Of a stretch of 64,000 bases of DNA, positions 4,937 through 64,000 are shown one piece after another. The position numbers and the translations under genes were made by a program. The DNA comes from Bacteroidota bacterium (GTDB taxonomy: Bacteria > Bacteroidota > Ignavibacteria > UBA10030 > UBA8401). Numbering within the stretch: position 1 is the stretch's first letter; each line of letters begins with the position of its first letter. The stretch is taken from the NCBI GenBank assembly GCA_030679145.1, contig JAUXTU010000055.1:1-64000 (forward strand), read 5' to 3'. The notes beneath the pieces were generated by a model. The model searched no databases and was not told the DNA's origin. It saw only the letters and a program-made list of their open reading frames with translations.

Positions 4937-7936
4937 GTGAAGAGATTATTTTTATTATGTATAGTTGTTTTTGTAGGTCATCTTAATGCCCAACAAAACT
5001 CCGGTGAATTACAGGAAGAACAGGACTATGCCTTTTCATTCGGACTTTTTGATGATAAACTGTACCAGCTTTCATTTGAGCAATTCAAAAAATTCATCGA
5101 CCAATATCCGAACAGCGTAAAGCGGCCGGACGCGATTTTCCTTTCTGCTGAATCACAATTCCGGCTTAATCAGTATCAGTCTTCCATATCCATTTTTAAG
5201 AACTTCACTCAGGATTATCCCAAGCATAAACTTCGGTTAGATGCACTCTTTCGTTTAGGCGAAATGAATTATGCATTGACCGTGTATAAAGATGCAATTC
5301 CTTTCTATCGTGAAGTATATGAAAAATATCCGTTGATAGATCAAGCAGGAGAGGCAGCGTATTGGGTTGGCGAATGTTTTCTCAAATTGAACGATGTAGC
5401 AAATGCCCAAATTTATTTCAAAGTGAGCTACGAACGGTATCCGAAACACCGTTTAGTGGATTATGCATTGTATTCCATTGGCTGGACATTTGAGCGAAAA
5501 AAAGAATATTCCAAAGCAATTGAAGTATATCAGAAACTCTTAACTGAGAAGAAAGAGAGTGATTTGTTCTCTGCAACTTCTGTGCGGATTGGCGAATGTT
5601 ATTTTCAATCGCGTGATTATAAAAAGTGTATTGAATATCTCATGCAGACAAAGTCAACACTTTCTGATTCAACAGAAGTACAGCGAAGTGAATATCTGAT
5701 CGGAGAATCGTATTACAGTTTGGCTGACTATCCAAAAGCAAAAATGCAATATGCGGAATTCCTTAAAAAATATCCGAAGAGCATCATTTTCCGCGATGTA
5801 AAATATTCCTATGCATGGACATTCTTGAATTTAAAAGAATATGATCAAGCAGCATTATTGTTTGGAGAACTTTCCGGCGGTAATGATGATATTTCATATA
5901 AGTCGATGTTCCGCAAAGGGCGTTCGCTTCAATTGAGCGGGAGGATAGATTCTGCTCTTACAACCTATCTGCAAGTGGTCGCGGTTCGGTCGAATGGTGA
6001 TCTTTCTGACAATGCTTATTATGAGTCGGGAATGATTTACTTTGAAAAAAAGGATTATGACAAAGCGCTGCAATCATTTCAAAATATTGTTGCAAAATAT
6101 TCTCAAAGCGATGTGATAGCCGATGCCCACCGAATGATTGGAGAAACATTCTTAGCACAGAAAAAATTTAATGAGGCATTGACCGCATTCCGTTCGGTGG
6201 GGAAGACTGAATCGGGAAATTCCAGTGTGAAGAGTGATGCTCAATTTCAAGAGGCGTGGGCATTATACAAAATGAAAAAATTTGCTGATGCTGCAAATTT
6301 ATTCCAGCAATATGAACGCCGGAATACAAGACAGCCCCAAAATGCTGAAGCAAATTTCTGGGCTGCAGAGTCATATTTCCAAATCGAAAAATACCTTGAG
6401 GCGGAACGACATTATGCTCAATCAATAGAGAATCTGCAGGATGTGAAAAAAATCGACGCACAATATGGTCTGGCATGGTCATACCTTAAACAAGGAAAAT
6501 ATCAGGCGGCTGCAAATGCATTTGAAAAGGTTGTAGAAGGTGACACAGCAAAAAAATATACTCAAGATGCTCAATTACGAATTGCTGATAGTTATTACTC
6601 TGCGAAAATGTATGATAAAGCAAGTGATGCATATCGAGCATACATTAAGACGAATTCTGCGGCAACAAATAACGATTATGCATTGTTTCAAGTGGCAAAT
6701 GCTGAGTTCCGTTCGAATGATGATAAAGAAGGTATAGCGCAGTTTTCGGAACTCATTGCACGATATCCAAAATCGCAATATGTCGACGATTCGCAATATG
6801 GAATAGGACTAATTCATTTCCAAAACAAACGCTATCAGCTTGCGATCGCAGAGTTTGAAAAACTGATCAAAAATTTCCCCAAAAGTGAAATGGCTTCACG
6901 TGCTCAATATAGCATCGCTGACGCATATTATAACCTTGAAAAATATCCTGATGCAATTGCCGCATATAGCGAAGTTGTAAAAAATTACGAGAATTCTCCC
7001 TTGGCAAGCGATGCTGTGAATGGGATGCAATATTGCTTTGTTTTATTGGGAAAGCCGCTTGATGCAATCTCTGTCATAGATGATTTTGTGAAATCAAATC
7101 CAAATGTTCGCCTTGCTGATGAGTTGTTTTTCAAAAAAGGGGATTTATTCTACGGACAAAAGCAGTTTGATAGTGCGATTGTTGCATATAAGGATTTTAT
7201 TGGTCGTTTCTCAAAAAGTAAATTATTAGGTGATGGATATTTCTGGCTTGGAAAATCATATCAGGCATTAGGAAATGCGCAAACCGCCCTGGAGTCGTAT
7301 AAAACTTCTGCTGAAAATTTTCCCTCCAGTCGTGTAGCAAGCGCTGCGCTCTTTGAAATCGGAGGTATTTCCTCACAGCGCGGTAAACCGGATGCGGCAT
7401 TGAGTGCATATTCAAAGATTGAGGAACAATATCCGGCATCCAATGAAGCTTCTGAAGCTTCTTATCAACAAGCTCTTGTGTTAAAAGGTACAGGACAATT
7501 GATTGCTGCCGTAAAGAAATTCGAAGAGACAATCTTTAAATATCAAAAGAGTATTGCCGCGGACAGGAGTAAGCTTGCACTTGGCTGGCTCAATGTTGAA
7601 TCCGAACGATACGCAAAAGCCGCAGAATATTTTAAATCGGTGGCGGTGAATCGTACGGATGAAATCGCAGCTGAAGCACAATATGCTGTCGGGCTTGTGT
7701 ATCAAACTCAAAAAAATTATCAGGAAGCGATCGTGAATTATTTGCGAGTACGATATGTATTTCCTGCGGCTGCACAATGGATCGGTCGTTCATATTTCAA
7801 TCTTGGCGAATGTTACGAGAAGATAAATCAAATTCAAAAAGCAAAGGATGCATTCAACTTTGTGGTGAAACAAAATAAAGTTGCAGATCTGGTTCCCGCC
7901 GCCGAGAAAAAATTGAAATCATTGGAGCAATTGTGA
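4937..7936 (+). CDS. giant TPR-repeat envelope protein (YbgF/BamD-like repeats)
   Basis: This 999-residue protein has signal peptide MKRLFLLCIVVFVGHLNAQQ followed by about 25 tandem TPR units. These units recur as YxxAxxxFxxxxxxYPxS, for example KAKMQYAEFLKKYPKS and LAIAEFEKLIKNFPKS. This is the repeat type of BamD and of CpoB/YbgF, periplasmic scaffolds that bind envelope machinery. The start is GTG at 4937 behind GAGGAAAC. It is the first gene of a six-gene run that continues with a beta-barrel, a SPOR protein and TolQ/TolR/TonB-like proteins, so it is probably the periplasmic hub of that envelope complex. At 999 residues it is about four times the length of a normal YbgF. Confidence 0.88.
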   Translation: MKRLFLLCIVVFVGHLNAQQNSGELQEEQDYAFSFGLFDDKLYQLSFEQFKKFIDQYPNSVKRPDAIFLSAESQFRLNQYQSSISIFKNFTQDYPKHKLRLDALFRLGEMNYALTVYKDAIPFYREVYEKYPLIDQAGEAAYWVGECFLKLNDVANAQIYFKVSYERYPKHRLVDYALYSIGWTFERKKEYSKAIEVYQKLLTEKKESDLFSATSVRIGECYFQSRDYKKCIEYLMQTKSTLSDSTEVQRSEYLIGESYYSLADYPKAKMQYAEFLKKYPKSIIFRDVKYSYAWTFLNLKEYDQAALLFGELSGGNDDISYKSMFRKGRSLQLSGRIDSALTTYLQVVAVRSNGDLSDNAYYESGMIYFEKKDYDKALQSFQNIVAKYSQSDVIADAHRMIGETFLAQKKFNEALTAFRSVGKTESGNSSVKSDAQFQEAWALYKMKKFADAANLFQQYERRNTRQPQNAEANFWAAESYFQIEKYLEAERHYAQSIENLQDVKKIDAQYGLAWSYLKQGKYQAAANAFEKVVEGDTAKKYTQDAQLRIADSYYSAKMYDKASDAYRAYIKTNSAATNNDYALFQVANAEFRSNDDKEGIAQFSELIARYPKSQYVDDSQYGIGLIHFQNKRYQLAIAEFEKLIKNFPKSEMASRAQYSIADAYYNLEKYPDAIAAYSEVVKNYENSPLASDAVNGMQYCFVLLGKPLDAISVIDDFVKSNPNVRLADELFFKKGDLFYGQKQFDSAIVAYKDFIGRFSKSKLLGDGYFWLGKSYQALGNAQTALESYKTSAENFPSSRVASAALFEIGGISSQRGKPDAALSAYSKIEEQYPASNEASEASYQQALVLKGTGQLIAAVKKFEETIFKYQKSIAADRSKLALGWLNVESERYAKAAEYFKSVAVNRTDEIAAEAQYAVGLVYQTQKNYQEAIVNYLRVRYVFPAAAQWIGRSYFNLGECYEKINQIQKAKDAFNFVVKQNKVADLVPAAEKKLKSLEQL

Positions 7937-12648: not shown

Positions 12649-13845
12649 ATGGCCACCGTTCAAGAAATTTCCGTAAATGACAGATTTATTCACCGTAGTA
12701 ATTCAAAAGAATTGGAACGTCAGGTCGGGGTATTCTCAAATAATAAGCAACTCGAAATTTTTGGGAATGCAATCTCTGATTTTATGATCGTGACTAATTC
12801 ACAATGGCAGATCGTATTTGCGAATGAGTCTCTGATAAAATATCTCGCTGTTCCTTCGTTGGATGATCTTTTAGGGATGCGGATCGGTGAAGTTTTTTTC
12901 TGTAATAGCTCTATAAAATCGTCGCTTGGCTGTGGTACCGCTGAGACTTGCAATTTATGCGGTGCTTACAAGGCTTTTGTCTCCACAGAACAAGGATTTC
13001 TTGGTGAACAAGAATGTAACATCACTTCCGGAAGTGAGCATAAGAATATCGATCTTCGAATTAAATCAACACTCATTACTATTGAAGAAGAGCAGTTCAC
13101 AATATTTGTGATGACTGATATTACCGACAGTAATCAACAAAAAGTACTTGAACGGGTATTCTTCCACGATCTTGCAAACAGCATCGGTAGTTTGCTTGGG
13201 TATGCAGAATTGATGAAAAACGCAAAACCAAATGAGCTTGAACAATTCCGTTATGTTTTTTTTGAAATTACCCAAAATATTTCCGATGAAATAATTGCAC
13301 AACAACAATTGACTGCTGCGGAGAATCATGTATTAGAAGTGCAGTCCGTTGTCCTTCATTCTCGATCATTATTAAGTTCCATAGCAGAAATGTATCAATA
13401 TCATGTGGTAGGGAAAGGTAAGTCTATTGTCATCGATCGAAGTGCTGAAGATTTTGTTTTTGTCACTGACGATGTTTTGTTCCGACGTGTGATCAGTAAT
13501 CTTGTGAAAAATGCCTTAGAAGCATCCGGTGCACACGATGTTGTTACGCTCGGTTGCATTAGAAAGAATCAGGGGTTAGAATTTTCTGTCCACAATAATG
13601 CTGTCATCCCTAACGATGTACAATTACAGGTATTCAAACGATCGTTCTCGACAAAGGGAGTTGGACGAGGACTTGGAACATATAGTGTAAAATTACTGAC
13701 TGAAGAATATCTAAATGGAGTTGTCTCCTTCAATTCAAACCAGCGTATAGGAACGGTGTTCTCGATCATTGTCCCGGAAAACATTAAACAACATTCGCGG
13801 GAGAAAAAAGGAATGATTCTTGCATTTTCATCCACCAGTAAGTGA
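12649..13845 (+). CDS. PAS-domain sensor histidine kinase with a Cys cluster
   Basis: This soluble 398-residue kinase has an N-terminal PAS domain (about 35-160) and a histidine-kinase core. The PAS domain contains the cluster C85, C95, C101, C104 in the pattern CGTAETCNLCGA. A C-x5-C-x2-C arrangement like this is shared by a set of PAS kinases and could bind a metal or Fe-S/redox centre. The H-box is FFHDLANSIGSLLG with His173. The ATPase part has NLVKNALEASG and GVGRGLGTYSVKLL, with a somewhat short catalytic domain. There is no membrane segment, so it senses a cytoplasmic cue. It is followed 51 bp later by a hybrid kinase. Confidence 0.85.
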   Translation: MATVQEISVNDRFIHRSNSKELERQVGVFSNNKQLEIFGNAISDFMIVTNSQWQIVFANESLIKYLAVPSLDDLLGMRIGEVFFCNSSIKSSLGCGTAETCNLCGAYKAFVSTEQGFLGEQECNITSGSEHKNIDLRIKSTLITIEEEQFTIFVMTDITDSNQQKVLERVFFHDLANSIGSLLGYAELMKNAKPNELEQFRYVFFEITQNISDEIIAQQQLTAAENHVLEVQSVVLHSRSLLSSIAEMYQYHVVGKGKSIVIDRSAEDFVFVTDDVLFRRVISNLVKNALEASGAHDVVTLGCIRKNQGLEFSVHNNAVIPNDVQLQVFKRSFSTKGVGRGLGTYSVKLLTEEYLNGVVSFNSNQRIGTVFSIIVPENIKQHSREKKGMILAFSSTSK

Positions 13846-53520: not shown

Positions 53521-54303
53521 TTATTTTCCTGTAAACTTCGGCGCACGTTTTTCAATAAACGCCGCAAGCCCTTCTTTGTGATCGAGCGATTGTGCTGCAA
53601 TTTCCTGCATCATTGCTTCATATGCAAGAAGTTCATCAAATGACATTATGAGAGATTTGTTGAGAGTCCGTTTAATAATGCCGATCGCTTTGGTTGCGCC
53701 ATTCGCTAATTTATTCGTAAGTTCGTATGTGAATTTTTCCAGTTCAGCGTGAAGAACAACATGATTGACAAGTCCGACTTCTTTTGCTTCTATCGCATCA
53801 ATATCTTTTCCGGTCGCAGCAAATTCAAATGCTTTTGCAGTTCCAACAAGTCGGGGAAGAAACCAATGTGAACCTGAATCTGCAACTAATCCAATCCGAA
53901 CAAATGCTTGAATGAACTTTGCTTTATCGGACATGATTCTCATATCGCACGCAAGTGCAAAACTGAATCCGGCTCCTGCTGCAACACCGTTGATCATCCC
54001 GATGATCGGTTTTTCCATTGTCCGCATTTGTTTGATGATTAGATTGTATCCTTTTTCGAGCATCTCTTTCATCGAACTCTTTGCTTCTTGATATTCTTTC
54101 AGATCCTGTCCGGAGCAAAATGCTTTTTCTCCGGCACCTCGTAGTACAATGCATTTCACTGCCGGATCTTTCTCTGCCTGTTTAAAAGCCTCAAGCAATT
54201 CTTTTTTCATCTGCTCATTCACCGCGTTATAACTTTCCGGGCGGTTCAATGAGATGGTGAGAACATTGTCTGAAACGGAGTAGAGGATTGTTGTGTATTC
54301 CAT
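53521..54303 (-). CDS. enoyl-CoA hydratase/isomerase (crotonase family, PaaG-like)
   Basis: This 260-residue crotonase has the oxyanion-hole segments GAGEKAFCSGQDLKEYQE and INGVAAGAGFSFALACDMRI. The active-site segment is FVRIGLVADSGSHWFLPRLVG, with Asp in place of the common Glu, as in PaaG-type isomerases. The end DHKEGLAAFIEKRAPKFTGK is intact. It differs from the two crotonase 3'-end fragments at 60.2 and 62.2 kb, which come from other family members. Confidence 0.93.
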   Translation of the reverse strand: MEYTTILYSVSDNVLTISLNRPESYNAVNEQMKKELLEAFKQAEKDPAVKCIVLRGAGEKAFCSGQDLKEYQEAKSSMKEMLEKGYNLIIKQMRTMEKPIIGMINGVAAGAGFSFALACDMRIMSDKAKFIQAFVRIGLVADSGSHWFLPRLVGTAKAFEFAATGKDIDAIEAKEVGLVNHVVLHAELEKFTYELTNKLANGATKAIGIIKRTLNKSLIMSFDELLAYEAMMQEIAAQSLDHKEGLAAFIEKRAPKFTGK

Positions 54304-54452: not shown

Positions 54453-54707
54453 TTAACGGTAAACTTCTTTTCTATGTTTGATTCGATAAATTAAAATGGA
54501 TTCTTTTTTGTCATCAATTTCATACAGAATTCTGTAATTGCCAGAGCGTATTCTGTAACCTTCTTTATGGTGCAGTTTCTGAATTCCTATCGGGCGTGGG
54601 TCTGATTCCAATTGTGCAATGCGAGAAAGTATCTTGAAGGCTTCCTTGTCAGGCAAGGCATCAAGGTCTTTTTGAGCAGAGGGTTTAATGTTAATTGTGT
54701 AAGCCAC
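54453..54707 (-). CDS. RelE/ParE-family toxin
   Basis: This 84-residue RelE-type protein has KPSAQKDLDALPDKEAFKILSRIAQLESDPRP and GYRIRSGNYRILYEIDDKKESILIYRIKHRKEVYR, the standard fold with the C-terminal basic-aromatic active-site tail. RelE toxins cleave mRNA on the ribosome; ParE toxins instead target gyrase. The tail (R-I-K-H-R-K-E-V-Y) favours RelE. The start is GTG at 54707, overlapping the antitoxin gene by 17 bp. Confidence 0.92.
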   Translation of the reverse strand: MAYTINIKPSAQKDLDALPDKEAFKILSRIAQLESDPRPIGIQKLHHKEGYRIRSGNYRILYEIDDKKESILIYRIKHRKEVYR

Positions 54708-54882
54708 GCTTCTTCAAATATTGTTGTATGGTAACACTTTTGCCCCGAATATTTTTTGCTTTTTCGAGATCAGAAATATCTTCGAGAAGTTCAATCGCTT
54801 CACTTAACGCCGGGTTTGTCTTCATACTCTCCCAATCTTTGCGTTTAATCTTTATGTGAGATTTTGTTTTTGTGAGTGTCAT
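54691..54882 (-). CDS. antitoxin of the RelE-type pair
   Basis: The 63-residue product is charged and mostly helical (LSEAIELLEDISDLEKAKNIRG), as expected for a small antitoxin that wraps the toxin. It precedes and overlaps the toxin gene. The DNA-binding part, if any, is not of a family I recognise. Promoter signals should lie in 54883-54932. Confidence 0.85.
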   Translation of the reverse strand: MTLTKTKSHIKIKRKDWESMKTNPALSEAIELLEDISDLEKAKNIRGKSVTIQQYLKKRGLHN

Positions 54883-55042: not shown

Positions 55043-57004
55043 CTAATCCTTCTTCTTTCTGCTAACCATTTTACGCACGACCTTATGTTCGCGCGGTTTA
55101 AATTCTCGTTCTTCCGGAATCAATGTCTTCCAGTCCGGTCCGCCATGCGGTTTCGGTCTGTCGAAACTTCGTGTTTCGGTAAATGATTCCCTTTTTTCAA
55201 AACTATGTTCTCGTTTCTGTGCATCAAACGGTTCACGTTTCGCAAATCCGCCTTCTCTGCGGCCTGCGCCGAATGAATCCCGTTTTGCAAAACTTTTCCG
55301 CTCGCCTCCGAATGAAGGTTTCTTTCCGAAGCTTCGACGTTCTCCGCCAAATGATTCTCGTTTCGCATATCCGCCTTCTTTACGTTCTCCACCGAATGAT
55401 TCCCGTTTCACAAATCCGCTATCTTTGCGCTCTCCGCCAAATGATTCACGTTTTGGATATCCGCTGTCTCTACGACCGCCTCCAAACGAATCACGTTTAG
55501 GGAAACCACCTTCTTTACGAGCACCACCGAATGAATCACGTCGCGGGAAACCGCCTTCTTTGCGATCTCCGCCAAACGATTCACGTTTTGCGTATCCGCC
55601 TTCTTTGCGTTCACCGCTGCCGAATGAATCCCGTTTTGGGTATCCGGTGCTTCGTTTTTCTCCGCTGCCAAATCCGCTGCTGCCGGTTCTACGATCATCT
55701 CGTTTGAAACCTTCGCGGCGATCCGGACGACTTCCAAAACTTGAACGTCTGTCCGTTCCACGATCATTTCGTTTGAAACGGTCTCTGTTTTCTCCGCGAT
55801 GTTCTCTGTTGAAATTCGGTTCATCGTTTGATTGATGATCAGATCCCGCCAGCTTTACAGGTTTTTCTTCTACCTTATTGTAATCAAAGTCAGGATATTT
55901 TTTAATTTCAAATTTCTTTCCGATGAACTGCTCGATCTTTTTTACGTGTCGTGCTTCATTTCGCGTAACAAAGGTTAATGCATCTCCGGTTGAAAGTGCG
56001 CGCCCCGTTCGACCGATGCGGTGAATATAATCTTCTGCATAGGTTGGGATGTCATAATTGATGACGTGTGAAATTCCTTCAACGTCAATTCCACGTGCTG
56101 CAACATCCGTTGCCACTAAAACTTTGTATTGACCTTGCTTGAATCCGGCAAGCGCGCGTTGTCGCTGTGCCTGCGTTCTGTCCGAATGGATCGATATTGC
56201 TTTGATTCCATTCTTATGTAAATTATTTGAAACTCGTTCTGCGCCGACTTTCGTTTTGGAAAATACCAGCACGCAGTCCAATTCTTTTGTTTGAAGAATA
56301 TGAAGCAGAAGGCTCAATTTTTTGTCATCATTCACAGTATAAAAATGCTGCGTTACTGTTGTTGCCGGTGTGCGCTGATGACCAACTTCGATCAATTCCG
56401 GATTTTTTTGGATGTTCTTTACCAATGCGCGAATTTCTTTTCCCATCGTTGCGGAAAATAACAATGTTTGCCGTGTTGCCGGAGTTTGTTTAATGATCAA
56501 TCGCATATCATCGATGAATCCCATATCAAACATTCTATCTGCTTCATCCAGTACAAGTACTTCAACATTCGATAGGTTGACACTTCTGCGTTCTAAATGG
56601 TCGATCAATCGTCCCGGTGTAGCGATAAGAATATCGACGCCTCGTGATAATTGTTTTAATTGATTCTGAATATTAGTTCCACCATAAATTGAAAGAGCTT
56701 TCACCGGAAGGAATCGTCCGTATTGTTTTACGGCATCTTCGATCTGCTGAGCAAGTTCACGTGTTGGTGTAAGAATAAGTGCTTTAATGTGATGCGATTT
56801 TTCTGTCTGTTCCGCCAAGCGGTTCAGGATTGGAAGTGTGAACGCAGCGGTTTTACCCGTTCCTGTTTGCGCACTGCCGATAATATCTTTGCCGGCGACT
56901 GCCAGCGGAATTGCACGTGCCTGAATTTCAGTGGGGGTAGAATACCCGGTCGCAAGAATTCCTTGCACAAGTCGGTCGTTAAGACCAAGGGCTTGAAAAG
57001 CCAT
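55043..57004 (-). CDS. DEAD-box RNA helicase with long repetitive tail (RhlE-like)
   Basis: This 653-residue protein has a complete helicase core (about 1-370): Q motif TEIQARAIP, AQTGTGKTAAF, VLDEADRMFDMGF, LFSATMG, VLVATDVAARGIDV and HRIGRTGRA. The last 270 residues are a disordered, Arg/Gly/Ser-rich tail. Its core is a unit like KRESFGGERKEGGYA repeated over ten times. Such tails bind RNA and promote condensates or annealing in RhlE/DeaD-type helicases. The start is ATG 57004. A 412-bp gene-free region lies upstream. Confidence 0.95.
   Translation of the reverse strand: MAFQALGLNDRLVQGILATGYSTPTEIQARAIPLAVAGKDIIGSAQTGTGKTAAFTLPILNRLAEQTEKSHHIKALILTPTRELAQQIEDAVKQYGRFLPVKALSIYGGTNIQNQLKQLSRGVDILIATPGRLIDHLERRSVNLSNVEVLVLDEADRMFDMGFIDDMRLIIKQTPATRQTLLFSATMGKEIRALVKNIQKNPELIEVGHQRTPATTVTQHFYTVNDDKKLSLLLHILQTKELDCVLVFSKTKVGAERVSNNLHKNGIKAISIHSDRTQAQRQRALAGFKQGQYKVLVATDVAARGIDVEGISHVINYDIPTYAEDYIHRIGRTGRALSTGDALTFVTRNEARHVKKIEQFIGKKFEIKKYPDFDYNKVEEKPVKLAGSDHQSNDEPNFNREHRGENRDRFKRNDRGTDRRSSFGSRPDRREGFKRDDRRTGSSGFGSGEKRSTGYPKRDSFGSGERKEGGYAKRESFGGDRKEGGFPRRDSFGGARKEGGFPKRDSFGGGRRDSGYPKRESFGGERKDSGFVKRESFGGERKEGGYAKRESFGGERRSFGKKPSFGGERKSFAKRDSFGAGRREGGFAKREPFDAQKREHSFEKRESFTETRSFDRPKPHGGPDWKTLIPEEREFKPREHKVVRKMVSRKKKD
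55250..55690 (-). repeat. tandem repeats in the helicase tail
   Basis: About ten degenerate units of 42-45 bp encode the KR-(D/E)-SFGG-(G/E)-RK-(D/E)-GG motif. The repeat is visible in DNA as recurring 'gaatga(t/a)tcacgtttt' and 'ccgccttctttgcg' blocks. It probably expands and contracts by slippage. Confidence 0.8.
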
Positions 57005-57500
57005 TATTTTAGATCCTTTTGTTTATTATTTGCCGCAAACAAAGCGCAGAAACAGACTAATCACTCTTATTCTGAGCGTAGCGAAGAATCTCAAACGAGA
57101 ATACTCGCAGGGTGTTGATTTAAGGCAAACGTTGTGTTAAAAAATGACTCGCTGCTTTTTGGATGCAGTGTGCGGAAGGAAAATCCTAATGCGAATTGCC
57201 ATCAGAGAAGCGTGTCGTATATCCGCTTCTGAGACAGTGTTAGATTTTCAGATGCGGTGTTGCATATTTGCAACGCTTAAATATACACAAAGAATGGCAG
57301 AGTTCCAATTAATGTTTGTTAATGATGTTTAATCATTATACTCTCTGGAAAACTTTGAAAAAAACTTTGGCAAGGGTGTCGGTGAGTGTATCGAAACGAT
57401 ATATTATATTCTGTAATTGAAAGTCAGATTAAAAGTATCTATATTAGTTGCAATAAATCGAAACTATGAAATTGAGCAACTTACTACCGATGGGGATAGC
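57005..57500. promoter_or_regulatory. divergent intergenic region; possible ArsR operator at 57389-57401
   Basis: No credible gene lies here. 57069-57101 holds the dispersed TTCTGAGCGTAGCGAAGAAT wording seen in many genomes. TATCG-AAA-CGATA at 57389-57401 is a perfect dyad 100 bp before the ArsR ATG and is a candidate operator for that regulator. A TTTGGCAAGG stretch at 57368 was considered as sigma54 -24 but lacks the -12 part. Confidence 0.4.
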
Positions 57501-57821
57501 ATGAGCAAAGAAATCTTTCAACTTCACGCCGAAGTGTGCAAAACACTTTCCCACGCAAAACGACTGGAAATACTCAGTATCCTCAGAAATGATGAATTAA
57601 GCGTTGGAGATATCGTCGATACGATGGAAATCCCGAAAGCGAATGTCTCACAACATCTTGCCGTACTGCGTAAAGCCGGAATTCTAGATTCGCGCAGGGA
57701 TGGGTTGAATGTTTATTACAGTATTTCTAATCCCAAAGTGATAAAAGCGTGCGATTTGATGCGCGAAGTGCTTGTAGAACATCAAACCAAGAAGAGCAAA
57801 CTCATGAAAAATATTGCGTGA
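57501..57821 (+). CDS. ArsR-family transcriptional regulator with two cysteines
   Basis: This 106-residue winged-helix repressor has AEVCKTLSHAKRLEILSIL, the HTH DIVDTMEIPKANVSQHLAVLRKAGIL and the wing DGLNVYYSISNPKVIKACDLMREVL. Cys13 and Cys84 are placed in the first and last helices and could form a thiol-based sensor. They are not at the SqrR/BigR positions, since the residue after RLEIL is Ser. ATG 57501 is the standard family start; the longer frame from 57417 adds 28 non-conserved residues. It lies directly before an SQR-type gene, so it probably senses sulfide or polysulfide. Confidence 0.85.
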   Translation: MSKEIFQLHAEVCKTLSHAKRLEILSILRNDELSVGDIVDTMEIPKANVSQHLAVLRKAGILDSRRDGLNVYYSISNPKVIKACDLMREVLVEHQTKKSKLMKNIA

Positions 57822-57834
57822 AAGGAATAGTATT

Positions 57835-59076
57835 GTGACCAGAAAAACTATTGTTATTGTTGGCGGCGGAGTTGGCGGAATTGTTGTCTCCAATGAACTC
57901 CGGCGAAATTTACCGCTGTCACATCGAATCGTTTTAATTGAGAAAAATGCAGTGCATACATTTGCTCCATCATATCTATGGTTGATGACGGGAGACCGCA
58001 CGCCGGAAAAGATATCAACGCCGCTGAAAAGTTTGGTTCGAGATGGAATCGAAGTAATTCATGCCGAGGTTACTAAAATTGATGTATCACGAAAATCTGT
58101 TACCGCTTCAAATCAGGAATTGAATTACGATTATCTGGTCGTCGCTCTTGGAGCAGAACTCGCTCCCGAGTTAATTCCCGGTTTGTCGGAAAGCGCATTT
58201 TCATATTATTCATTCACCGAAACAGTGAGACTACAAAAGGCACTGATTGATTTTGAAGGAGGAACAATCGGCATTGTCGTTTGTTCAATGCCATACAAAT
58301 GTCCAGGCGCGCCGCACGAAGGAGCCATGCTGATTGCTGATTATTTCCAAAAACGTGGAATGAAGGAGAAAATAAAAATCCATCTCTTTACTCCAGAGCC
58401 GCAGCCTATGCCCGTTGCCGGTCCGCAACTTGGCGAAGCAGTGAAACAAATGCTTGCAACCAAAGGAATTTCGTTTCATCCTCTCCATAAAATAATTTCT
58501 GTAAATTCACAAAGTCGTGAGATCTCATTTGAAGGAAAAGATCCATTTCATTTCAATATGCTTGTAGCAATTCCACCACACCGCGCTCCACGTATAGTTC
58601 GTGAATCTGGTTTATCAAATGAAGCGGGATGGATTCCTGTTGACCGCTCCACGCTTAAAGCAAATGCTGAAAATGTATATGCAATTGGAGATGTTACGGC
58701 ATTAGGAATTCCCGGAAGATGGAAACCAGACGTTCCGATGATGCTTCCTAAGGCAGGAGTGTTTGCTCACGATCAGGCTGAAATTGTCGCAAAGCGCATA
58801 ACAGATGAAATCAACGGACAATCACCGACTGCACAATTTTGCGGAACCGGATATTGCATGCTTGAAGCGGGGGAAGGAATGGCGGGTTTTGCATATGGTG
58901 ATTTCTTAAACGATCCACACCCAACACTTCAATTACGTAATATCGGCAGAGCGTGGCATTGGGGGAAAATAATTTTTGAACAATGGTGGCTTGCACCATT
59001 TGGATTGAAGAAAAACATTTTTGGTCTTCTGTTAAAACTTGGTGCAAAGATGTTAAGAATTCCGATAAAATTATGA
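57835..59076 (+). CDS. sulfide:quinone oxidoreductase-like flavoprotein
   Basis: The 413-residue enzyme has FAD motif IVIVGGGVGGIVVSNELRR, second FAD motif VYAIGDVTA, and cysteines in SMPYKCPGAPHEG and FCGTGYCMLEAG. The KCPGAPHE Cys corresponds to one of the sulfide-oxidising pair. A third conserved Cys of classical type I enzymes is not evident, so subtype and activity need testing. A C-terminal amphipathic Trp-rich helix (WHWGKIIFEQWWLAPFGLKK) fits monotopic membrane binding next to quinone. GTG 57835 is preferred; it follows AAAGGAATAG and begins TRKTIVIVGGG. Confidence 0.87.
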   Translation: MTRKTIVIVGGGVGGIVVSNELRRNLPLSHRIVLIEKNAVHTFAPSYLWLMTGDRTPEKISTPLKSLVRDGIEVIHAEVTKIDVSRKSVTASNQELNYDYLVVALGAELAPELIPGLSESAFSYYSFTETVRLQKALIDFEGGTIGIVVCSMPYKCPGAPHEGAMLIADYFQKRGMKEKIKIHLFTPEPQPMPVAGPQLGEAVKQMLATKGISFHPLHKIISVNSQSREISFEGKDPFHFNMLVAIPPHRAPRIVRESGLSNEAGWIPVDRSTLKANAENVYAIGDVTALGIPGRWKPDVPMMLPKAGVFAHDQAEIVAKRITDEINGQSPTAQFCGTGYCMLEAGEGMAGFAYGDFLNDPHPTLQLRNIGRAWHWGKIIFEQWWLAPFGLKKNIFGLLLKLGAKMLRIPIKL

Positions 59077-59096
59077 TTTCACTGTAACTATCGAAA

Positions 59097-59888
59097 ATGG
59101 ACAAATTTTTAGAAAATAAAAACTATCAAGAACCATCGGTTTTTACTCCGGAGAATTTACTACGTGAAGCGAGGAGACAAAAATCAATTGAACATTGTCG
59201 AATCCCCAATGTTTGTATCCTTGATCCCGATGGTGATTTGGTTGAGTATCTTTTACGAACAGGGCAAGCGGATTTAAATAAGTGTTGGGCTTGCTATCAT
59301 ACAAAACTTTACAGTTTTACGTATAAAGAATTAGAATTTGGTGTGGTGGGTTGTGTTGTTGGCTCATCATTTGCGGTTTTAGTTGCGGAAGAACTGTTTG
59401 CTTCAGGCTGTCAATTACTCATAAGTGTTACGTCGGCGGGCATTATTAATTCGCCTCAAAATAATTCCCGATTCATTTTAATAGATCGAACAATTCGAGA
59501 TGAAGGGACGAGTTATCATTATTTACCTCCCAATGAAGATGCTTCCATCAATAAAACATTATTGAATATTTTACTCAACTCTTTTAATGATTCATCACTA
59601 TTAGTTGAGAGTGGCACAAGTTGGACAACCGATGCTCCATTTAGAGAAACTATTTCAGCTATTGAGTTTGCAAAGAACAAAAAAGTTACCTGTGTTGAAA
59701 TGGAAGCCGCTGCACTTTATGCTTTTGCAAAAGTTAAAAATAAAAATGTAATCTGTTTTGCACACCTCACTAACACAATGGCACAAAGCAAAGGTGATTT
59801 TGAAAAAGGGGAGGAAATGGGAAGTGTAGATACCCTTGAATTAATTTATCATGCTGCTAAAATATTAGCAACGGAGAAGGAAAAATGA
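59097..59888 (+). CDS. nucleoside phosphorylase family protein
   Basis: This 263-residue PNP/UDP-phosphorylase fold protein has YKELEFGVVGCVVGSSFAVLVAEEL and LLISVTSAGIINS. The active-site end is VTCVEMEAAALYAFAKVKN. The family cleaves nucleosides, or MTA/SAH with sulfur-bearing bases, using phosphate. Between an SQR-like and a DsrE-like gene, and overlapping the latter by 4 bp, it may serve sulfur salvage, but this is only contextual. Confidence 0.85.
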   Translation: MDKFLENKNYQEPSVFTPENLLREARRQKSIEHCRIPNVCILDPDGDLVEYLLRTGQADLNKCWACYHTKLYSFTYKELEFGVVGCVVGSSFAVLVAEELFASGCQLLISVTSAGIINSPQNNSRFILIDRTIRDEGTSYHYLPPNEDASINKTLLNILLNSFNDSSLLVESGTSWTTDAPFRETISAIEFAKNKKVTCVEMEAAALYAFAKVKNKNVICFAHLTNTMAQSKGDFEKGEEMGSVDTLELIYHAAKILATEKEK

Positions 59889-60205
59889 AAATAGGAATCA
59901 TTATTGAAACGAATGAACCGGAAAAAGCTTGGAATGGTGTTCGCTTTGGTAACACAGCATTAAAACAAGGACACGAAGTAAAGATATTTCTTATGAGCGC
60001 CGGTGTTGAAATTGAAAGTATTGTTCATGAAAAATATAACGCGAAGAAACAAATTGATGAATTTATCCAAAACAAAGGAATCGTTTTAGCGTGCGGCACA
60101 TGCATTAAATCGCGAGATCAAGATAGCACAGAAGTTTGTCCTATCTCAACGATGATAGATTGTTTAGAAATGGTGGAGTGGGCTGATAAGGTTATTACGT
60201 TCTGA
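59885..60205 (+). CDS. DsrE-family sulfur-relay protein
   Basis: This 106-residue protein of the DsrE/DsrF fold begins MKIGIIIETNEPEKAWNGVRFGNTALKQGHEVKIFLM. Its conserved cysteines lie in VLACGTCIKSR and STEVCPIS. DsrE-like proteins carry persulfide sulfur in oxidation or tRNA thiolation pathways. It is the last gene of the ArsR-SQR-phosphorylase-DsrE operon and ends 4 bp before a crotonase 3' fragment on the other strand. Confidence 0.85.
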   Translation: MKIGIIIETNEPEKAWNGVRFGNTALKQGHEVKIFLMSAGVEIESIVHEKYNAKKQIDEFIQNKGIVLACGTCIKSRDQDSTEVCPISTMIDCLEMVEWADKVITF

Positions 60206-60209
60206 TCAA

Positions 60210-60278
60210 CTATTTGTTCTTCCACATTGGTTTCCGTTTATCCACAAACGCTTTCATCTCTTCTTTTTTGATTTTCAA
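60210..60278 (-). pseudogene. crotonase 3'-end fragment A (22 codons plus stop)
   Basis: The minus strand reads LKIKKEEMKAFVDKRKPMWKNK and stop, the canonical end of an enoyl-CoA hydratase. No crotonase sequence lies upstream; instead the stop of the barrel gene at 60275 is formed inside this fragment. Fragment B at 62208 is its counterpart (57 of 68 positions identical). It is a truncated remnant, not an active gene. Confidence 0.8.
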
Positions 60279-62092
60279 GGATAAATACTGATTCCTATCC
60301 ACCATGCAAACGAGAAAAGAGGATCGGAATATGGACGATCATTGATTGACGGTGAAACAAGGAGGCGCAAATTGAATAATGGCGTTGGGGATACCGTAAA
60401 TCCTCCAATGAACGATGTTTCAATATCGCTCAGTCGTTTTTTTGGTGTGGTGTATTGTTCTGCAAAATTAGTTTGAGTTGTTGTTGTCCCTGATTCTGTG
60501 CGTGTGCGGTAAGAAAAATATTGTGTTGTGACATCTTCAATTTCCCATTCAGTCATTCTTCTGTTAATTCCAAAAAGCAAAGTCCCGACTGCTGACGTTT
60601 TTAAGGTAAAGATAAGAGGAATTTGAATAGTTGTAAGTTTTGTTACGAAACGCCAATCTACATTTTTGCCTTCGGAAAGTTTAAAAATTGAATTGGAAGT
60701 TGAATTATTTGAGCTGGAAGAATTATAAGAAGAATTCAGAACTATTGTTCCATCGGATGTAGAAAGCTCTGTAATGTCGGACTCTCCCGATATCCCCACG
60801 TAAAGTTCTCTTTTTTGATCAAATTTCCAATTCAGCGAAATAATTCCGCGGTGAAAAATTCGTTCCGATGTTCCTTTTCCATTTCGCGTATCGGATACCG
60901 AATACTGAGATTCGTTTTGGTTCCAGTTCCCTAGATATTCGTACCGATTTGAATAATTGGACGAGTCGTTGATAAAAGATGCATTTGTAATGTCGAGGTT
61001 CTGTGTCTGCATTTGATATACGAATGTTACTGTTTTACCTGGACCAATTTGCGTTAAGAAATTCACACCGCCGTAATATGTGTTGCCGTTATGGTTCCAT
61101 GTTTGATCTGTTTTCGAAAACCGGCGGTTGTAATTCCACAATGGGGGTTTGTTTACACTTCCATCCGCGTAAAACGAAGTATCACGCCGATTGAGATTCT
61201 GCACCGCTGTTCCGGTGAGTAATCCAAGATTTGCTCCGATAATTTTTCCATCATCTATGCGATATTGCAACCCGCCGTTCAGATCCCAATGGTTATATGT
61301 TTGCCCGCGCGACTCAAGATTGTACCACGTTGAAGTACTCGCTTGAGAGTTTGTCCAAAGATTGTTGGATCCGACTTCGCCGTTCCGGTCAAACACCGAG
61401 CGGTTTACTTTCAAACCAACGGTGAAATCGGTTGAAAGATCATATCCGGCGAACAGTGAAAAGAAATGACCGGTGTGATGCATATTGTTTTCACCGCCGC
61501 TTCTATTGATGATTGGTCCGCTTTCTAATGTTGTGATTCTATTACCAGCATAATCATATCCTGGCATATTGTTGTAAATATCCTGTGGAATAGAATAATA
61601 TTCCTCGTCTTGGAAAATCGCTTGGTACGTAATACCGAGCGATAAAGCAGGGAGTGTACTGATCATCGGTCGTGTAAGAAAAGCAGCAGAAAAGATCGGT
61701 TCAATACTTTTTTGAGTGTTAATATAATATGTTGGATAAGGAGCTATCCGCAAATCGGCAATATCTGCGGTGATGCGTGGAGTGGCGAAATAATTTTGTT
61801 GCTTAGCAATATCCGGATTCGTTCGAAAATCTATATAAATGTAATTTTCTGATAGCGAATCTGAATACACATTTGCCGGATTAATATTTAGATTGAGCAA
61901 GGGATCGTTAATGAGACCCGGTGCAACTGAAGATAATCCTTTCAATCCATAAGGATTAACAAAATTCGGTGTAAAGAAAAAACTCGTTTGCTCAAATGAT
62001 TTTTCTAACGAGCGATCTGAATAATAATATTGAGCATTGAGGGTTGAAAGAAAAAGGCAAGTTCCAATGAAAATTATCGCGAGGTGTTTCAT
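60275..62092 (-). CDS. outer-membrane beta-barrel protein of unknown function
   Basis: This 605-residue protein has signal MKHLAIIFIGTCLFLSTLNAQ, then strand-rich Tyr/Asn/Ser sequence with an Asn/Ser-rich stretch around 460-480 and an end LFSFAWWIGISIYP. A strong ribosome site (AAAGGAGGTTAT) precedes ATG 62092. The last coding bases join directly to crotonase fragment A, which supplies the TGA stop. It lies between the two crotonase ends like a cargo gene. Family not recognised; a porin-like or secreted-surface role is a guess. Confidence 0.7.
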   Translation of the reverse strand: MKHLAIIFIGTCLFLSTLNAQYYYSDRSLEKSFEQTSFFFTPNFVNPYGLKGLSSVAPGLINDPLLNLNINPANVYSDSLSENYIYIDFRTNPDIAKQQNYFATPRITADIADLRIAPYPTYYINTQKSIEPIFSAAFLTRPMISTLPALSLGITYQAIFQDEEYYSIPQDIYNNMPGYDYAGNRITTLESGPIINRSGGENNMHHTGHFFSLFAGYDLSTDFTVGLKVNRSVFDRNGEVGSNNLWTNSQASTSTWYNLESRGQTYNHWDLNGGLQYRIDDGKIIGANLGLLTGTAVQNLNRRDTSFYADGSVNKPPLWNYNRRFSKTDQTWNHNGNTYYGGVNFLTQIGPGKTVTFVYQMQTQNLDITNASFINDSSNYSNRYEYLGNWNQNESQYSVSDTRNGKGTSERIFHRGIISLNWKFDQKRELYVGISGESDITELSTSDGTIVLNSSYNSSSSNNSTSNSIFKLSEGKNVDWRFVTKLTTIQIPLIFTLKTSAVGTLLFGINRRMTEWEIEDVTTQYFSYRTRTESGTTTTQTNFAEQYTTPKKRLSDIETSFIGGFTVSPTPLFNLRLLVSPSINDRPYSDPLFSFAWWIGISIYP

Positions 62093-62207
62093 ATAACCTC
62101 CTTTTGGAGATGAGCGGACTAAGCTTTTCTGTTAAACTGTACTTTAAAATTCCCCTTAATTTTTGAAAGAGTCAAGTGCAAATTTATAGCAAACTGTTTA
62201 TAATTAT

Positions 62208-62272
62208 TTATCCTTCCACACCGCTTTTCGTTTCTCCACAAATGCTTTCATTCCTTCTTTTTTGATTTTCAG
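62208..62272 (-). pseudogene. crotonase 3'-end fragment B (22 codons plus stop)
   Basis: The minus strand reads LKIKKEGMKAFVEKRKAVWKDK and stop. It begins at the same codon as fragment A (TGAAAATC), where homology stops abruptly in both. Differences from A are mostly conservative or synonymous, so both copies were coding when they diverged. Upstream of it comes the nSTAND3 gene, after 47 bp. Confidence 0.8.
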
Positions 62273-62319
62273 TATTAACAAACGAGAGTTCCTATTAAAG
62301 TTTGTTCATGAGATATTTT

Positions 62320-64000
62320 TTAATGATACAATAATGTTGAGAATAATGATTCGATTTCTTGGTTTTCTTCTTTCTCTCTATTGCTATTATCATTTAAATC
62401 ATCATTGTTTTCTTCTTCTGGCTCATCTTCATTTTCTTTGATTGAATTAATTTTTTCATTTAACTCAGTAATAAGATCATTAGAATCTGATTTAAAAAAT
62501 CTGCTTATCTTTTTTATTCTACTTAAATCCTCTTCAAAAGTATAAATATCGTCGTTTCTATTAGTGAGTTCTTCTTGATATGCATTGCTAAACTCTTCAA
62601 ATCTATTCCTAATATCATCTTCATCTTCTTCTGTTATGATTTGGCTATGTCTTGTATAAAAATCCATTAGTTCGACAAAATCTTGTGTCGAATTTGAGCG
62701 TTCCAATAGAGTGGTTTTCAACTTTAGAATTATATCATCTTTTTTTGAATTATTTAAGGATTTAATATTTTCAATTGATTGAGATATGGAAACTATTAAT
62801 GTTTTTTCAATTTGATGACTTAGTATTAGTTTATTCAAATTATCGATAATGTCTCCAATAATTAACATCTGTTCATCTTTTGTGAAATATTTCATTTCAT
62901 TAAGAATAAAAGCAATTCGCTTATCCATGGGTATCTTTTTCCATCGGTATAAATTTTTTTCCTCGTACCAAGTTAAAATTTCACAATCCATCGAACGGAT
63001 TGACTTTTGAGCGTTGAGTAAAAATTCTTTTTTTATTTCTTTATCTTTTTTATGGGAATAATTTTTAAGTATTTCCCAAGCTTTTTCGATTTGGTTGAAA
63101 AAGACGATAGAGTTAAATATTTGTTTAATTAATTTATCATTGTCCTTAAGTAGTTTTTCTAAAAAATCTCTAACTGATGGATTATGAAAAGAAACAATGA
63201 TGTTTCTTCCAATCTTTTCCGTCTTTATAAAATTGCCATCAAGTTCGTGCATCGAATTTGTAAATGTTTGTTCATCAAAAGAAGAAGTTGTATTCTTAAT
63301 TGAATAAAAGGCATCGAATGCCAGTTCGAGATCTTTAATTAACACTTCGCTTGGTAGGGTTGTCAAAACGACAAGAAGTTTTTTTGATGCAATACTAAGT
63401 TGATTATCATAAATATGCTTCCAAAGCCTACTTGGATCGTCTAAATTATTTAAAAAAGCCCTTACATAATTTTCTTTAGGCTTTGGGGTATAAAACTCGG
63501 CTCCCGTCATCCATTCTACTATTCTAGGATTAAAATTGGGATGTCCCACTATTTTCTTGTACGAGTGATCTTTTAAAAGTTGTTTTTTTATATGAAGTGG
63601 TAATAGGGAATGATAAATATGATTAAATAAAATTTTTGCTCTTTGAAGCTTAGTATATTTTTCTAAATCAATTACACATTTATGAATATCAAAGTTAGAA
63701 CGGCTGATTTTTTCGTATACATTTTTTGCTTGACTTAAAATATACTCCCTTGTCGTTAATATAAATCGTTTATTTTTTTTCCTTTTAACATAATCAATAA
63801 AATTGAGCAGTTCTTCATCTTCATTTTTTGCGAGCTTGTGCTCTAAAGATGTTTGCCCTAAAAAATCATCGTAGTAAAATACTTGTTTCTTTGTCTCACT
63901 TATAATTTCTAACGCCTCGCTAATAGATTTTGATATTTTTATTGCCTCGTATCCTTTACCGAGATATCTTACTATTAAAATATCTGCTAAGGTTGTTTTG
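62320..64000 (-). CDS. nSTAND3-type NTPase, C-terminal part (5' end outside window)
   Basis: The frame stays open on the minus strand from 62320 to the window edge; a GTG at 63549 is not its start. Residues beyond it translate as KTTLADILIVRYLGKGYEAIKIS (end of Walker A), QVFYYDDFLGQT (Walker B), KRFILTTREYILSQA (sensor) and KYTKLQRAKILFNHIYHS. These fit the nSTAND3 ATPase pattern, often fused to an N-terminal nuclease in anti-phage Avs-like proteins. KIVGHPNFNPRIVEWMTGAEF matches its HxNFNPRIIE motif. The C-terminal third is helical with an acidic Asp/Glu/Asn tail. The effector domain lies beyond the window. Confidence 0.8.
   Translation of the reverse strand, partial: KTTLADILIVRYLGKGYEAIKISKSISEALEIISETKKQVFYYDDFLGQTSLEHKLAKNEDEELLNFIDYVKRKKNKRFILTTREYILSQAKNVYEKISRSNFDIHKCVIDLEKYTKLQRAKILFNHIYHSLLPLHIKKQLLKDHSYKKIVGHPNFNPRIVEWMTGAEFYTPKPKENYVRAFLNNLDDPSRLWKHIYDNQLSIASKKLLVVLTTLPSEVLIKDLELAFDAFYSIKNTTSSFDEQTFTNSMHELDGNFIKTEKIGRNIIVSFHNPSVRDFLEKLLKDNDKLIKQIFNSIVFFNQIEKAWEILKNYSHKKDKEIKKEFLLNAQKSIRSMDCEILTWYEEKNLYRWKKIPMDKRIAFILNEMKYFTKDEQMLIIGDIIDNLNKLILSHQIEKTLIVSISQSIENIKSLNNSKKDDIILKLKTTLLERSNSTQDFVELMDFYTRHSQIITEEDEDDIRNRFEEFSNAYQEELTNRNDDIYTFEEDLSRIKKISRFFKSDSNDLITELNEKINSIKENEDEPEEENNDDLNDNSNREKEENQEIESLFSTLLYH

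Follow-up and report, generated by a model that had tools for sequence, protein, structure and literature searches.

The 3' end of ECH1, a gene for an enoyl-CoA hydratase (crotonase), has very probably been the target of serial insertion. Sequence comparison supports an insertion point that was used at least twice in the present Ignavibacteria-type genome (G000) and independently in a genome of a sister genus (G017). Repeated insertion at one site had been proposed in an earlier note on this DNA; it gained support from empty sites in six congeners, from the array in G017 and from displaced gene ends that look recently functional. The window, i.e., the whole stretch of 64,000 nucleotides analysed, ends short of the intact gene, which was found just beyond it on the minus strand of the contig (C10, 64652-65425), where the earlier note had recommended a search. 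ECH1 was open through to its stop and its gene end is functional, as expected for a gene restored after insertion.

Two fragments within the window, tail A (60211..60277, minus strand) and tail B (62204..62270, minus strand), were copies of the terminal ~66 bp of ECH1, in the same orientation as the gene and downstream of it; the intact gene sits 2.4 kb past tail B. With the intact gene end as blastn query, tail B was recovered at 93-94 % identity over 67-74 bp (E 3e-25) and the older, decayed tail A at 82-85 % identity (blastn 82 % over 67 bp, E 1e-9), which bears out their initial reading as crotonase 3' ends. A whole-genome search yielded exactly three tail copies, the gene itself, B and A, followed by a next match with an E value of 0.4. 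A dispersed repeat was ruled out, as the three copies all lie at the ECH1 locus. In each displaced tail 19 codons including the stop are in frame (KEGMKAFVEKR...), instead of the 22 codons plus stop assumed before, and 11 of the 57 in-frame bases differ between A and B, in line with the roughly 11 differences counted at first. The first 18 bases of A and B are identical and ECH1 differs there by one base and one indel: both copies have an extra A and a G-to-A change (TGAAAATCAAAAAAGAAG against TGAAGATCAAAAAGAAGG), which are absent from the aligned relatives. The fragments had been described as beginning at the same codon; this holds for A and B. When all four copies of the two genomes are compared, the starts vary, also within G017, and fall roughly between codons 231 and 240, a span of about ten codons and the finest placement possible. 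The left side of the joints is gene sequence throughout, and the right joints have at most a few matching bases. As the exact start points of the copies cannot be fixed, site specificity is only suggested.

Counted from ECH1, the array consists of the gene, 40 bp, an nSTAND3 gene, a spacer edge, tail B, 110 bp, a barrel gene and tail A. Past tail A follow a convergent DsrE-phosphorylase-sulfide reductase-ArsR cluster, the helicase-promoter edge, a DEAD helicase, a RelBE-like pair and ECH2. The first cargo gene (62320..64000, on to contig position 64611, minus strand) encodes an nSTAND3 NTPase of 763 aa with an N-terminal Mrr_cat nuclease-like domain (Pfam PF20720, E 7e-55; PF04471, E 4e-9). 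It matched PADLOC PDC-S73 (E 8e-168), making it a candidate defence gene, and was not found in the 97 other genomes of the order (98 examined including G000). The second cargo gene (60275..62092, minus strand) is complete and encodes an outer-membrane-barrel-like protein of 605 aa that had no Pfam match; the gene occurred in 25 of the 98 genomes of the order and in none of seven congeners. Its TGA stop is at the same time the opening triplet of tail A. A truncation of the barrel by the insertion was ruled out, since homologues end at the same residue (WW...P-stop) and the C-terminus is full. The third cargo (57417..60205, plus strand) comprises genes for an ArsR-like regulator (by eye), a sulfide:quinone/FCSD-like reductase, a PNP_UDP phosphorylase and DsrE, classified by Pfam; it ends 5 bp from tail A and had no match in the ECH1 loci of fourteen relatives. 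In the part at 59097-60205, the nucleoside-phosphorylase-superfamily and DsrE-like genes are co-directional with the sulfide:quinone-reductase-like gene. The DEAD-box helicase gene (55043..57004, minus strand) is native to the locus and, within the genus, the gene next downstream of ECH1. ECH2 (53521..54303, minus strand), about 33 % identical to ECH1, is a distinct native crotonase paralogue with syntenic orthologues of 82-94 % identity in the genus. Between the helicase gene and ECH2 lies a RelBE-like toxin-antitoxin pair (54453-54882, by eye), which among the relatives' loci was matched in G003 alone, and there by the antitoxin only.

Six congeners (G001-G005 and G007) presented the empty site with a single crotonase end, the second feature recommended for a search: one ECH1 tail, no cargo and the helicase gene ~400 bp later. 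None of them had a tandem second ECH1; the nearby second crotonase, where present, was ECH2. All genomes compared are drafts or metagenome-assembled. A misassembly over A and B is unlikely, since these copies are not identical and the second assembly shows an arrangement of the same kind. In other lineages the barrel gene and an aldo-keto reductase (AKR) gene appear to be natural neighbours of ECH1, as indicated by the gene orders ECH1-barrel-ECH2 in G010 and ECH1-AKR-ECH2 in L123, both without spare tails.

A second array with three tails was present at the same gene in G017, which belongs to another genus of the same family. Between its tails are a Y1/RAYT transposase and an AKR, in the order ECH1, hairpin, Y1/RAYT transposase, hairpin, tail, hairpin, AKR, tail and hairpin-like remnant. 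The array then continues with those genes that come immediately after ECH1 in the congener G009, which thus represents the empty site for G017. Homology of the G017 tails extends beyond the stop into the 3' hairpin, as expected if the inserted segments were chromosomal. The hairpin is REP-like (GTGCGACTCACTTT...AAAGTGAGTCGCAC; L065:6857-6900, 7518-7546, 7635-7663), stands after each ECH1 tail and flanks the Y1/RAYT transposase; it occurred at five places in G017, two of them on other contigs, and nowhere in G009. REP mobilisation was considered as a common cause by way of this hairpin, in a comparison covering G017 and G009, and was not retained. Spare ECH1 tails were confined to G000 and G017 among the 98 genomes of the order, and a scan of 124 loci revealed extra tails in these two array genomes only. 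No further array was among the matches listed for 391 genomes of the class; the scan of the phylum was stricter and insensitive to copies like A and B.

The codon record of the displaced ends depends on their distance to the gene. Against the live tail, the gene-proximal copy of G017 (copy 2) had seven synonymous and no nonsynonymous codon differences; for neutral change the expected synonymous fraction is 0.20, corresponding to a p of about 1e-5. Tail B had two synonymous and no nonsynonymous differences. The test is strong for G017 copy 2 alone, and the two changes of B say little. The distal copies had accumulated both types, three synonymous and five nonsynonymous differences in A and four and three in G017 copy 3. 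Copies near the gene diverge only synonymously and thus resemble gene ends that were live until displaced: they look functional until recently, and the distal copies look older. Such a gradient from fresh to decayed is predicted if insertions occur in series and each replaces the live end, and not if one old tandem duplication decays. The live gene tail gave no clear identity break against relatives, 57 bp being too short to tell. With 57-67 bp, the tails are also too short for a reliable phylogeny, so their source, host or donor, is inferred from position and decay only.

Tail B had been described as abutting the nSTAND3 gene. Instead, ~50 bp separate the two, and 27 of these copy the edge of the helicase promoter. 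This copy of the ECH1-helicase spacer edge (62285..62311, minus strand; TCATGAACAAACTTTAATAGGAACTCT) is joined to tail B. The native edge (57299..57325, minus strand) forms the right boundary of the insertion zone and is conserved downstream of ECH1 in G001, G002, G003, G004 and G005. A 24-base pattern of the edge matched only twice in the genome of 3.83 Mb at up to three mismatches, with zero matches expected in a shuffled window; with two genome copies, a dispersed promoter or repeat was ruled out. Together with the next 10 bases, 62285-62311 forms an imperfect inverted repeat (ATGAACAAAC...GTTTGTTAAT, 16-base loop) before tail B, its right arm being the reverse complement of the native edge motif. 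As the nSTAND3 unit ends in the 27-bp edge copy, it looks like a complete allele of the ECH1-helicase spacer that carries a defence gene and is followed, in a head-to-tail junction, by the next ECH1 tail.

A tyrosine recombinase (PF00589) was detected on neither array contig, in agreement with the first observation that no integrase is visible, and several are encoded elsewhere in both genomes. Two gene-tail patterns had no match in viral contigs. In phage records the annotated matches of the tail peptide were crotonase-family genes, two records being unannotated; among the matches listed for plasmid records, most were annotated crotonases and the rest had no annotated feature. The cargo contained no LAGLIDADG or GIY-YIG domain, and barrel and AKR are without a nuclease. 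The gene-proximal cargo has an Mrr_cat domain in G000 and is a Y1 transposase in G017. Traits of an element are present in the flanking copies of the target gene end, three tails each in G000 and G017, and in the empty sites.

With no tyrosine integrase at either array, ordinary recombination is the likeliest cause, and we see about an even chance that the arrays arose by serial additive recombination of ECH1-linked segments without a dedicated integrase. In each event a segment with its own ECH1 tail and downstream cargo would be joined onto the body of ECH1. The gene would keep a working end, and the previous end would be shifted downstream and decay there; the array would hence run from newest to oldest away from the gene. 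The segments may be ECH1-linked pieces of related chromosomes, acquired during uptake of relatives' DNA. On one side such a segment would pair with the homologous sequence in ECH1; its other side would enter the gene tail through an illegitimate joint or one based on short homology. A circle that integrates in the Campbell manner might give the same result. Integrase-free recombination does not readily explain that all four copy starts fall within about ten codons, nor the two changes common to the first 18 bases of A and B. Survival bias, by deletion of long repeats, or amplification of one joint could be the source of the shared starts and changes. Barrel and AKR may also be ancestral neighbours rather than imports.

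These same observations, the clustered starts and the common changes of A and B, make a site-specific element the main rival. Tandem decayed integrative elements comparable to the cis-mobilizable elements termed CIMEs, with the ECH1 3' end as att sites, a recombinase acting in trans or lost and the gene restored, would account for the use of the same gene end in two genera, for copy starts within one short stretch and for a core in A and B that differs from the gene, and units of 2-3 kb in tandem order fit classical CIMEs, which measure 1.2-13 kb and occupy the 3' ends of protein genes (PMC7563491, PMC5704250). We nevertheless regard this origin as rather unlikely, as both arrays lack an integrase (PF00589), neither tail pattern was found in viral contigs, unit 1 ends in host-spacer sequence and not in an element end, and the cargo includes native neighbours of ECH1. 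The specific version of the earlier idea, an element that carries a recombinase and restores the gene, is unsupported: a tyrosine recombinase is missing from both arrays, the viral contigs gave no tail match, and the nSTAND3 unit terminates on its right in a piece of the host's own ECH1-helicase spacer.

Local amplification, in which tail and spacer were duplicated in tandem, the joint was multiplied by unequal crossing-over and the contents were later exchanged with relatives, would trace the common start and changes of A and B to a single event; at B the joint connects the right edge of a spacer with the left edge of that same spacer, which is what a tandem duplication predicts. This course of events appears improbable, for G017 would need an event of its own, independent of the first and almost at the same position, and A differs by 19 % from B and the live tail, G017 copy 2 by 16 % from its live tail, so that exchange with diverged donors would be required in addition. 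Still more doubtful is a spread of cargo by nuclease-stimulated replacement of a conserved gene's tail without an integrase, conceived by analogy as a bacterial counterpart of mitochondrial elements that replace 3' ends; the nuclease-type protein of the newest cargo (Mrr_cat-nSTAND3 or Y1 HUH transposase) could then cut the tail of the empty allele. A tandem of two or three full crotonases that insertions or deletions later destroyed, in essence the alternative in the earlier note, would suit the uniform orientation downstream of the gene and is very improbable, given that none of the six congeners has a tandem ECH1, that extra tails were limited to the two array genomes in the 124 loci scanned and that all remnants, in both genera, would need to end at one short stretch of the 3' end.

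Insertion hotspots occupied by defence and metabolic genes are a common feature; how they acquire cargo in the absence of an integrase is often unclear. As fossils of the insertions, spare gene tails put the events in order and suggest that every event swaps the end of the host gene. The mechanism becomes testable with two arrays that arose independently at one gene, and the type of scar could be searched systematically. A survey of the fetched loci, which covered 1,016 other genes and, as the gene lies beyond the window, not the window's ECH1, gave one comparable case (L143); such scars are thus uncommon. In L143 (Anaerolineae; 11986 and about 13230-13283), an acetyltransferase-like gene (by eye) is followed 1.3 kb downstream by a spare 3' tail that is frameshifted. 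A 348-codon frame on the opposite strand lies between gene and tail, and the arrangement is possibly the same kind of scar.

Several known systems resemble parts of the ECH1 arrays; in its mode of operation the array is like the streptococcal CIMEs and the fungal mitochondrial insertions. In homology-facilitated illegitimate recombination, one end of a linear DNA pairs with a homologous sequence and the other is joined illegitimately (PMC3240628). Like the proposed serial recombination, it is integrase-free; it is known from naturally competent bacteria. To our knowledge it has been described as single experimental events, not as serial arrays at one gene end. Streptococcal CIMEs, related to ICESt1/ICESt3 and to the accretion of IMEs, form tandems in the 3' ends of fda, rpsI and rpmG without recombination genes (PMC7563491, PMC5704250). 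They share with the ECH1 array cargo units (1-13 kb) bounded by gene-end copies at the 3' end of a protein gene. The ECH1 array differs in that an integrase-bearing partner at the site was found neither on the two array contigs (PF00589) nor in viral contigs by tail match, that unit 1 contains host-spacer sequence and that some cargo is the natural neighbour of the gene elsewhere. In fungal mitochondria (Allomyces, Glomus), mORF insertions replace the C-terminus of atp6, atp9, cox2 and nad3, and one C-terminal copy of Glomus atp6 differs only synonymously from that of a relative (PMC3630166). As in the ECH1 array, a foreign in-phase gene end is fused and the native end is displaced downstream behind the cargo; the mORF elements are mitochondrial and encode LAGLIDADG/GIY-YIG homing nucleases, whereas the gene-proximal cargo of the ECH1 arrays is nSTAND3-Mrr or a Y1 transposase. 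Defence hotspots likewise combine a candidate defence gene (here PDC-S73) with other cargo, all within a single variable spacer that is flanked by core genes; the spare gene tails would set the ECH1 array apart from them.
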